60,443 nt of DNA from Thermoplasmata archaeon. GTDB lineage: Archaea > Thermoplasmatota > Thermoplasmata > Thermoplasmatales > Thermoplasmataceae. The position numbers were made by a program, and so were the translations under genes. Position 1 is the stretch's first letter. Each line of letters starts with the position of its first letter. The notes below the pieces were generated by a model. It made no database searches. It had not been told where the DNA came from and worked only from the letters and a program-made list of their open reading frames with translations. Positions 23,806 through 26,550 of this stretch are shown piece after piece. Location of the stretch: contig JAKAVO010000010.1 in the NCBI GenBank assembly GCA_021817255.1, forward strand, positions 1 to 60,443. Direction: 5' to 3'.

Positions 23806-23850
23806 GAAGATCAGATTAAATATAAACAAGATATACACAAAAACAGTAGT

Positions 23851-23923
23851 GGGTTTGTGGGGTAGCCTGGTATCCTTCCAGCTTCGGGAGTTGGAGACCC
23901 CGGTCCAAATCCGGGCAGACCCA
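23851..23923 (+). tRNA. tRNA-Pro (CGG)
   Basis: A 73-nt cloverleaf. The acceptor GGGTTTG pairs with CAGACCC (one G-T); the anticodon stem CCAGC/GTTGG closes the loop TTCGGGA, giving anticodon CGG; the T arm is CCCGG-TCCAAAT-CCGGG; the discriminator is A. No CCA is encoded and there is no intron. The last 18 bases before the discriminator are repeated 1.5 kb downstream, marking this gene as an integration site. Confidence 0.95.
23905..23922 (+). repeat. attL-like repeat at the tRNA-Pro 3' end
   Basis: The 18 bases CCAAATCCGGGCAGACCC, covering the T-loop to the acceptor 3' strand, are identical to 25422-25439 in the same orientation. This is the classic core of an archaeal integrase-type attachment site. 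Confidence 0.8.
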
Positions 23924-24106
23924 TTCCTCTGGGAGAGACCGTTTTGAGCTGTACACGAATGATAAACAAGGGTTTTATTATTGTTAAGAAAATAGAGGTA
24001 TTTTGAATGGATACTGACAGAATGACCCGTGTTCCATTCAAGAGATTATTTCTGCGAATAATTACAATTATCCCCGGCCAAATCTGGGATTTGTTTAATC
24101 TTTTGA

Positions 24107-24340
24107 GAGAATACGGACAGTAGCCACGATATTCCCGGTCACATTCCGGTCAAGCCTAAATATGATTCCAATTCAATCAGACCTCCTTTCGGAATTGTTA
24201 CTGAAACATATGAAATTAAGAAGAGTGAAGCGGAACAGGCAACGTTAGGAAGGTCTACATATATGGAAAAGAGAAGAGCTATAGAACCATACCTTACGTA
24301 TTTTCCACCAATGTCTTTCCCTTTTCTGGTTCCCTACTGA
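24107..24340 (+). pseudogene. Decayed open frame, possibly a transposase relic
   Basis: A 77-codon frame without a start codon. It reads like protein (HDIPGHIPVKPKYDSNSI, then TYEIKKSEAEQATLGRST and YMEKRRAIEPYL) and ends at TGA 24338-24340. The Y-x-x-K-R-R-x-I-E pattern recalls the C-terminal part of DDE transposases, but this is a weak match. The rest of 23924-24671 (about 750 nt) shows only broken short frames on both strands and no RNA gene beyond tRNA-Pro. Confidence 0.25.
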
Positions 24341-24671
24341 AATATTCCAAAAGAGGTGAGGGTTCAAAAACAGTTATCGCAAGATCAAAAAATCTCTCGA
24401 GAAGACCACTTCAATAAGGTTATAGTGCCAGGCTGTTCTCTTTTCACGGCGTAATCCTTCTGTTATACCATCTAGATTCTCCTGAACCCGAAGTGTAGAT
24501 CAAGAATAATTGCGGATGTTCCCGGGACATTCATACCCAGATTTCAAGAGGAAAACTGGGGTCACAAGAGGTGATTTTTGAATTTTTAATCTACAGCGAA
24601 AACATGGAACTTTCCTGCACTTAAAATTTCAGATGACCAATCTTTATTAGCATGTATTACATGTTATACCT

Positions 24672-24947
24672 ATGGCTGGACCGAATAAGAGTGCCAATAA
24701 TGACGTGCTTGTCGTGAGAAAAATAAACAAGGAAATCTATAAGCAATTCAGGCAGAAAGCAATGGAGGAGAACAAGAACGTTGGGGAAGCGCTGAATCAG
24801 GCTATGAATTATTGGCTAGCGAAGGAAAGAGAACATGAAAGACCTGACATCAAGAAAATGTTGAAACTTAATGGATTAGTGAAGACCAGCGGTAAGGTTA
24901 GCTGGAGTGTGAATGTAGATGAGATACTTTATGGTGACCTTTATTGA
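24672..24947 (+). CDS. VapB-like antitoxin
   Basis: 91 residues. The N-terminal half (VLVVRKINKEIYKQFRQKAMEE-type pattern, about 13-35, then NVGEALNQAMNYWLAKE) resembles a ribbon-helix-helix antitoxin that binds its own promoter; the C-terminal part should wrap the toxin. Its TGA overlaps the toxin's TTG start (TTGA). A TATA-like TTTATTAG lies about 30 nt before the ATG. Keeping an intact pair inside an otherwise decayed element fits the stabilising role of such modules. Confidence 0.75.
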   Translation: MAGPNKSANNDVLVVRKINKEIYKQFRQKAMEENKNVGEALNQAMNYWLAKEREHERPDIKKMLKLNGLVKTSGKVSWSVNVDEILYGDLY

Positions 24948-25348
24948 TATTTCTGGATACAAGTGTCCTCGTTGCTTATATTGTTAACAAAGACAGTAAT
25001 CACGAGAAAGCCGTTCGGTTGATAGATGACATTATCGCTGGCAAGTATGGATCCACTGTTACGTCTGATTATGTGTTCGACGAAACCGTGACGGTCGTTT
25101 TAGTCAGAACTAAGTCTTTGGAAAGTGCAATCACATCAGGACAGCTCATAAAAGAATCCATGGACATTCTCTCTGTCAACGACATTGTCTTTGAAAACGC
25201 ATGGAAGCTTTTCAAGAATCAGGAATCTGCAAGATTCAGTTTCACCGATTGTACTATACTTGCACTAATCTCAGCAAACCATATTGAAAATCTTGCCACG
25301 TTTGACAAGGAATTAGGAGGAGCTAATTTCTATCAAACAATCAGATGA
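24944..25348 (+). CDS. VapC-like PIN-domain toxin
   Basis: 134 residues of a PIN ribonuclease. The acidic metal-binding residues are visible: D5 in FLDTSVLVAY, E42-region SDYVFDETVTV, and D102-region RFSFTDCTILAL; LATFDKELGG ends the fold. VapC toxins cut RNAs such as tRNA or rRNA loops; the target here is unknown. The TTG start overlaps the antitoxin stop, and the order antitoxin-toxin is the normal one. Confidence 0.85.
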   Translation: MIFLDTSVLVAYIVNKDSNHEKAVRLIDDIIAGKYGSTVTSDYVFDETVTVVLVRTKSLESAITSGQLIKESMDILSVNDIVFENAWKLFKNQESARFSFTDCTILALISANHIENLATFDKELGGANFYQTIR

Positions 25349-25421
25349 AAAACTACTCGGATGCCAATCATCAGGAACGTCCCCATTTAATACTGCAATT
25401 CGGATTCGATTAATAAATTAA

Positions 25422-25439
25422 CCAAATCCGGGCAGACCC
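25422..25439 (+). repeat. attR-like copy of the tRNA-Pro 3' end
   Basis: Exact 18-base copy of the tRNA-Pro 3' segment (23905-23922). No upstream tRNA arms accompany it, so it is not a second tRNA. TTTTT follows directly. Confidence 0.8.
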
Positions 25440-25572
25440 TTTTTCTCCGAGTTTAAAGAAATAATCAAACATCCTTTTTTCACATAATAGTTAACTTATG
25501 GAACATTAACCCTTTTTTTCTCAAGAATCTATTCCATTCAATCTTGATCGACGCTTAAATCTTTGCCGGTTA

Positions 25573-26001
25573 TTATCTAATGAAAGGGTTTCTGATATCC
25601 AAACCTGGGAGCCTTGCAAAATCGGCCTCATTTTCAGTCATAATTAGAACTATGCCATTTTCCTTCATTGTCTCTGCAATAAGAGTATCAGGAAAAGGAG
25701 TTCTGAAGGTTCTTGAAACGTCTATAGCAGCCCTGACGGTGCGGTGGCTATAATCTACTTTCACCCAATTGGAGGATACGATGAATGACTCTACAATGAC
25801 TCTTGCTGACTCTGCTTCAACGCCAAGTTTACGAGTAAGTGCATTATACAGTTCAGCCAGTATCTGATTTGATATGATCCCCCTATGCTTCCCTTTAAAG
25901 ATGCCGCTGACAAGCGATTTGCATATTTCCCTCTTTTCTGGTTCGTTAAGATCATAGGCGTAACGGAGGACATTTGTATCGTAAAAGATTTTATCGTTCA
26001 T
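25573..26001 (-). CDS. PIN-domain (VapC-like) toxin, second system
   Basis: 142 residues. PIN-domain acidic residues are present: D8 in FYDTNVLRYAY, E50 in ILAELYNAL and D104 in FPDTLIAETM, with IMTENEADFARL as the last strand-helix. Translation begins at the ATG at 26001, overlapping the end of the antitoxin frame by 11 nt. The antitoxin frame itself is broken (see next entry), so this toxin may be unregulated, inactive, or controlled by another antitoxin. It lies just outside the att-flanked element. Confidence 0.85.
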   Translation of the reverse strand: MNDKIFYDTNVLRYAYDLNEPEKREICKSLVSGIFKGKHRGIISNQILAELYNALTRKLGVEAESARVIVESFIVSSNWVKVDYSHRTVRAAIDVSRTFRTPFPDTLIAETMKENGIVLIMTENEADFARLPGLDIRNPFIR

Positions 26002-26226
26002 AAAGTTCTTCCCTTTTGAAGTTCCATTTCTTCATAAGAATTCCCTCATCCAACAGCCTGAGATTCTCATTAAGAAGTTCCTGATCATCGCTCTTTAACC
26101 ATTCATCAAGTGCTTCATTGAATGCTTTCGCTAGAGAGCCCTTTTTATTTCCATATTTAATCTGGCTTTTTCTTTGAATCTTTTCTCAATAGAGTCATCT
26201 AAATTTACAATTAGTGTTTTCCTCAT
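25991..26226 (-). pseudogene. VapB-like antitoxin with a frameshift
   Basis: From the ATG at 26226 the frame reads MRKTLIVNLDDSIEKRFKEK and then meets TAG after 31 codons. Shifting by -1 at TTAAAT restores a typical antitoxin: KYGNKKGSLAKAFNEALDEW and so on to EELYER and a TAA that overlaps the toxin start. One A missing from a short A-run (about 26155-26160) explains it. A real mutation or a base-calling error are both possible. Confidence 0.7.
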
Positions 26227-26550
26227 GTTTTAAGAATATCTTAAAAGAGTTAAACATTTATGTTCTAAGCAAATGTAAAATCTATTTATGTCTAAATGGA
26301 AGCACCAAGTAATTGTTCAATTCTTGCTGAATTAATTAAATTTTTTGAATTTTCATATCTTCTGAAATCTGTCACTTTTTCGTTCTTATTGGTAGAATTA
26401 TCACTATAAACGAATAAAGGAAACGTGGAGTTTTATTTCATATCCCTGTGGATAAATCTCGCAATAATGATTGCTATCTGGAATTTGTATAGTTATTAAA
26501 CGTGGAAAAATAAGAATAAAATTTTTGTATTACGATGTCTTACGTTTTTA
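26227..26550. other. AT-rich gap, no gene seen
   Basis: I see no coding pattern, tRNA or repeat in these 324 nt. It should contain the promoters of the minus-strand antitoxin (around 26235-26255) and of the plus-strand gene at 26551. Confidence 0.4.

Follow-up and report, generated by a model that had tools for sequence, protein, structure and literature searches.

In integrons, an integrase is known to assemble arrays of cassettes, and the islands found at archaeal tRNA genes are usually treated as single or decayed elements. Islands of the pNOB8 type, which carry an intact integrase, resemble the locus described here in that their core repeat equals the tRNA 3' end, the tRNA is regenerated, empty sites occur in relatives and a tyrosine integrase stands beside the tRNA in relatives; the present element differs from them in its 1.5-kb size, the lack of an integrase, a single arm, one toxin-antitoxin pair, and arrays held by relatives. 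The nearest published parallel that we found is provided by the ssrA islands of Dehalococcoides, which lie in tandem with repeats of the 3' end of ssrA at their boundaries; 15 of the 31 islands lack an integration module and 16 have one, and their recombinases are of the serine type (PMC3146451). These islands and other cis-mobilizable elements share with the Thermoplasmatales loci the tandem segments, the repeats of the 3' end of a tRNA-like gene and the frequent absence of an integrase, but the segments described here are mostly 0.7-4 kb long, have an arm motif added to each site and are rich in toxin-antitoxin genes. Archaeal integrons use IntI and attC (PMC9668308), and the string "Thermoplasm" is absent from the paper's main text. 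Integrons and CALINs are similar in that small cassettes without an integrase, each closed by a recombination site, form arrays, and in having toxin-antitoxin cargo and a tyrosine recombinase, whereas here the integrase is not IntI, the site is a tRNA core plus a palindrome-like arm rather than attC, and the anchor is a tRNA gene. Islands of Cuniculiplasma and of acidophilic archaea, from the same order, lie near tRNA genes and hold many vapBC and relE or other toxin-antitoxin loci; in the passages searched of the two sources (PMC5155288, PMC12302457) they are described as the output of compositional predictors and not as att-bounded cassettes or as sharing a common site. No description of a cassette system of the present kind was found in the literature searched, subscription papers being mostly outside that search.

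The DNA analysed here (the window) is a stretch of 60,443 nucleotides from a Thermoplasmata archaeon. The features on which the argument turns are as follows.

23850..23924, plus strand: tRNA-Pro (CGG), the integration target, called by ARAGORN, with upstream neighbours kept genus-wide.
23905..23922, plus strand: attL, the left copy of the att core, within the tRNA gene (exact 18-bp repeat).
23924..24671, no strand: left part of the element, with no recognisable gene or left-arm motif.
24672..24947, plus strand: vapB antitoxin gene (91 aa), an open reading frame conserved upstream of vapC in homologues.
24944..25348, plus strand: vapC toxin gene for a PIN-domain RNase of 134 aa (Pfam PF01850, E=7e-16).
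25404..25421, minus strand: right-arm motif TTAATTTATTAATCGAAT, abutting the core and matching exactly the tRNA-Ala/integrase motif of relatives.
25422..25439, plus strand: attR, the right copy of the att core (exact repeat).
25573..26001, minus strand: native PIN/VapC gene (Pfam PIN) just outside the element, which marks the empty site in relatives.

We consider it likely that the segment behind tRNA-Pro is a non-autonomous, integrase-less cassette, one of a class of small Thermoplasmatales cassettes with a common site that are moved in trans by a tyrosine integrase. The 18 bases that precede the discriminator of tRNA-Pro(CGG), CCAAATCCGGGCAGACCC (23905-23922), recur exactly at 25422-25439, and TTTTT follows the second copy directly (25440-25444), so that both of these readings in the earlier note hold; at up to 3 mismatches the window contains 2 matches to the 18-mer, against 0.04 expected by chance. 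The two copies differ at base 19, where the tRNA has its discriminator A and the right copy is followed by T. Within its own assembly the exact 18-mer occurs in two places only, both bounding the element; a third near-copy with 1 mismatch lies on contig C42, in the other tRNA-Pro of the assembly, and outside the assembly the exact core is found only in tRNA genes of relatives. The register of attL, from the T-loop to the acceptor end, is that of the cores at tRNA-Ala elements. Sites are thus present at both ends of the roughly 1.5-kb element and an integrase is absent: tblastn with three integrases gave no meaningful match inside it, and no integrase fragment was found at either end. SSV-type integration, in which the att site splits the integrase, was rejected on the latter ground and because the integrases of relatives are intact.

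Comparison with relatives supports the claim that the DNA was integrated at tRNA-Pro. The genes upstream of the tRNA (agmatinase-like, eIF5A-like and a membrane protein, named by reading of the open reading frames) keep their order across the genus. The native PIN gene begins 134 bp after the right core copy in the window and 130 bp after tRNA-Pro in G004, a different species of the same genus whose intergenic DNA cannot be aligned base by base with the window; by these matching distances G004 has an empty site. A homologue of the native PIN gene stands 549 bp behind tRNA-Pro in G002. Conservation of the core copy and the intervening DNA in all relatives, which the earlier note had named as refuting integration, was not seen. 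The same tRNA is a repeated target, since integrases or distinct elements follow it in several relatives: an integrase gene lies directly behind it in G010, G003 and G011 (for G011 this reading relies on the beginning of the frame, at a contig end), and in G021, from another genus, the place is taken by a separate 1.40-kb element with a core copy, a different VapBC and no integrase. The right end of the G010 integrase element at tRNA-Pro was looked for and not found.

These occupants also feed the main rival explanation, namely that the window element is the right end of an ordinary integrase-bearing tRNA-Pro element from which integrase and left arm were deleted, leaving VapBC and attR. In addition to the three integrase genes directly behind the tRNA, a broken integrase gene follows tRNA-Pro in G017 with a core copy 3.64 kb away, G013 and G022 keep the integrase-type left motif at tRNA-Pro while the integrase is absent there, and the window element has a degenerate look over its left 0.75 kb, where no notable reading frame occurs and nothing related turned up in the loci compared. 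We nevertheless hold such decay to be unlikely. A left arm that starts a few bases from the tRNA end would have to be lost without harm to the tRNA, and the sequence most similar to the left-arm motif in that part of the element departs from it at 4 of 10 positions, which is the random level; further objections arise from the solo elements and arrays treated below.

Two side observations concern the native genes at this locus. In the window (25573-26230, minus strand) the antitoxin frame upstream of the native VapC is split between two reading frames, while its homologues are intact in G002, G004 and L191, so the native toxin looks orphaned unless there is an assembly error. In L191 (1170-5128), behind the same tRNA-Pro, several toxin-antitoxin modules are stacked without recognisable core copies, comprising a Panacea/ParE-like pair, a lone VapB, a further pair of small genes and a VapBC of the window type.

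The site at the right end of the element ties it to the tRNA-Ala elements of the order. The 18 bp immediately left of the right core copy, inside the element (25404-25421), read ATTCGATTAATAAATTAA and had been overlooked in the earlier note; their reverse complement is the motif that, in many relatives, separates tRNA-Ala from the integrase gene. A search of 25 genomes with this motif gave exact matches, those inspected standing beside tRNA-Ala and the one in the window at tRNA-Pro. Complete tRNA-Ala elements carry the left arm at one end and at the other an inverted right arm, GTATTCGCTTAAAACATTAA, and then the tRNA core. The right end of the window element has the same layout, arm and then core in the same register, according to the formula ATTCG-n-TTAA-nnnn-TTAA followed by the 18-bp core identical to the tRNA-Pro 3' end, although its arm is closer to the left-arm consensus of tRNA-Ala than to the right-arm consensus of the arrays. 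Together with the first core bases the arm forms a near palindrome, GGATTCGATTAA-TAAA-TTAACCAAATCC, as may be expected of paired recombinase half-sites. Of 117 genomes of the order, 52 contain the right-arm-plus-core pattern with at most 1 mismatch and none contains the reversed control pattern, and the window site fits the extended site pattern exactly. That the copy at 25422 came from chance or from partial duplication of the tRNA, with no recombination involved, is therefore extremely improbable: the window holds one such copy only, as that origin would allow, but against it stand the low expectation for a match at 3 mismatches, the arm motif that abuts the copy, the empty site and the silent control.

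As a separate observation, two types of motif adjoin tRNA-Pro in relatives, ATAAGCGAATACC-like in L033, L036 and L038 and AACTATGTTAAAACAGTTTC-like in L039, L042, L043 and L045. Each type is seen beside an integrase gene, which suggests that two integrase groups use tRNA-Pro.

The cargo of the element is one complete toxin-antitoxin pair, and the earlier description of the enclosed 1.5 kb as devoid of an integrase was borne out by tblastn, as was that of the pair by the Pfam PIN match. VapC has sequence relatives in the PDB in VapC AF_1683 and VapC20, and its acidic residues D5, E47, D102 and D121 are conserved in homologues; VapB, for which searches gave no convincing family, is encoded by the small gene just upstream of and overlapping vapC, the architecture of a type II VapBC. 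Compared with L191, the dN/dS of VapC is 0.10 (NG86) or 0.18 (YN00) and that of VapB 0.30 (NG86), and on these ratios we regard vapBC as being under purifying selection. The pair would be expected to favour the keeping of the cassette. In G004 and L195 homologues of the pair follow tRNA-Val, at about 50 bp and about 1.7 kb respectively; in L191 the window-type pair is at the same tRNA-Pro but beyond the native antitoxin gene, in the other order, and no att core remains around it. If insertion always takes place at the tRNA end, the two lineages would differ in which pair, window-type or native, came first. No homologue of VapC was found in viral contigs, and none of the window cassette in plasmids. 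Members of the Micrarchaeota live with Thermoplasmatales, and a VapC homologue with 48% identity to the window toxin is present in a Micrarchaeota MAG (L197, 1334-1735).

The window element is one of four integrase-less elements that sit directly at a tRNA with core and right arm and without a left arm:

The window element, at tRNA-Pro.
G021, at tRNA-Pro.
G000:C26, at tRNA-Cys.
G002:C13, at tRNA-Ala.

The tRNA-Cys element belongs to the same genome as the window (G000:C26 70469-73170, equal to L127 4469-7170); it is about 2.6 kb long and shares the arm-core site with the window element, and what reads as a RelE-like pair lies towards its right end. The cassette directly at tRNA-Ala (L126, 4794-7999) measures 3.2 kb and contains a long frame of no recognised family (~670 codons between stops) and a second gene on the opposite strand.

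Matches to the site are often strung in a single orientation across the genomes of relatives. Eight sites between 1.7307 and 1.7635 Mb follow a 19-kb integrase element at tRNA-Ala in G010, and strings of seven and six sites occur in G084 and G082, respectively. We cut 45 segments between neighbouring sites in 21 array regions (median 1.96 kb). None of the 45 has a tblastn match to the integrase, and none has the left arm in its first 45 bp, whereas the left arm is perfect in all eight of the tRNA-Ala integrase elements tested. Whole segments recur across genera with their ends at sites and with different neighbours. A 1965-bp family is found in G019, G066, G084 and G088 at 86-89% identity over the full length; a 711-bp VapBC family is found in G019, G084 and G094/G099, and also in G082, where it is fused to other DNA; and a 748-bp segment is shared by G011 and G103 at 91% identity, its right site being degenerate in G011. 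Homology over 300 bp or more was seen in 44 pairs, of which 19 begin no more than 12 bp from a site on both sides, a count that takes in three near-identical G094/G099 pairs. A Pfam toxin (PIN or ParE) is encoded by 7 of the 10 smallest distinct segments below 1.1 kb, a set that omits a 388-bp fragment, and the cargo of larger segments includes Fic, restriction-modification and transport genes. The tRNA-Ala array site was absent from viral contigs.

G094 and G099, which are labelled as different genera, have three cassettes in common at 98-100% identity, and a 10.2-kb stretch of their loci L184 and L185 is also 99.85% identical. This may reflect very recent transfer or a binning error, and because of the latter the two genomes were counted as one.

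On the decay reading, the same loss of a left arm with retention of the right arm is needed in the three other solo elements and in the 45 array segments, and random loss does not predict that whole segments recur between genera with their ends at sites. Of the two origins that the earlier note had offered, remnant or satellite, the satellite accordingly fits better: the class has neither integrase nor left arm, yet its segments recur whole. Another explanation would make the window segment a cis-mobilizable element that moves only by accretion, once a full element has inserted beside it, the two leaving jointly, and not in trans; the att sites at both ends and the lack of an integrase agree with that class. 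This is how the tandem integrase-less islands of Dehalococcoides have been read (PMC3146451), and it suits both the G010 array behind its 19-kb element and the 711-bp VapBC cassette of G019, which a 17.5-kb integrase element at tRNA-Ala immediately precedes. We find it improbable, however, given that all four solo cassettes stand directly at a tRNA with no full element and that single cassettes recur beside different neighbours. Mobility of the window cassette in trans, the reading we prefer, is inferred from such comparisons of sequence; the recurrence of whole segments between arrays is seen for the class, whereas the window cassette is known from one copy with intact sites, no second having been found.

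The candidate recombinase is the integrase family encoded behind the tRNA genes of relatives, where the genes are intact and not split. In 17 of these proteins R152, K196, Y270-x-x-R273, H300 and Y308 (numbering of the first sequence) are invariant. Pfam gave no convincing match and NCBIfam XerA_Arch a weak one below the cut-off, while PHROGs labels the proteins as integrase, and a predicted model (pLDDT 81) has XerA, the integron integrase, Cre and lambda Int among its best structural matches. No integrase of this family was found in the assembly of the window, which is 78% complete. A tyrosine integrase of this family, from a resident or visiting element, would join the two cores and free the cassette as a single-site circle, which could then be inserted in trans into the 3' end of a tRNA gene or into another core; because the core restores the end of the tRNA, that gene would survive the insertion. 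An integron cassette proper, with an attC recognised by IntI, was rejected as a description of the window segment, its site being a tRNA core with an arm and the integrases resembling XerA_Arch only weakly.

More broadly, and as a tentative proposal that we regard as possible rather than probable, Thermoplasmatales may have an integron-like system at tRNA genes, in which single-armed cassettes of ~0.7-4 kb, in many cases with toxin-antitoxin or defence genes, are taken up, put in order and set free by tyrosine integrases, and of which the window element would be a one-cassette array at tRNA-Pro. The shared site with its strict grammar, present in 52 of the 117 genomes, supplies a concrete reason for the gathering of toxin-antitoxin pairs beside tRNA genes and offers a testable recombination system in a group with a cultured organism. 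It also allows the exchange of cassettes among genera of acidophilic archaea to be followed by sequence.
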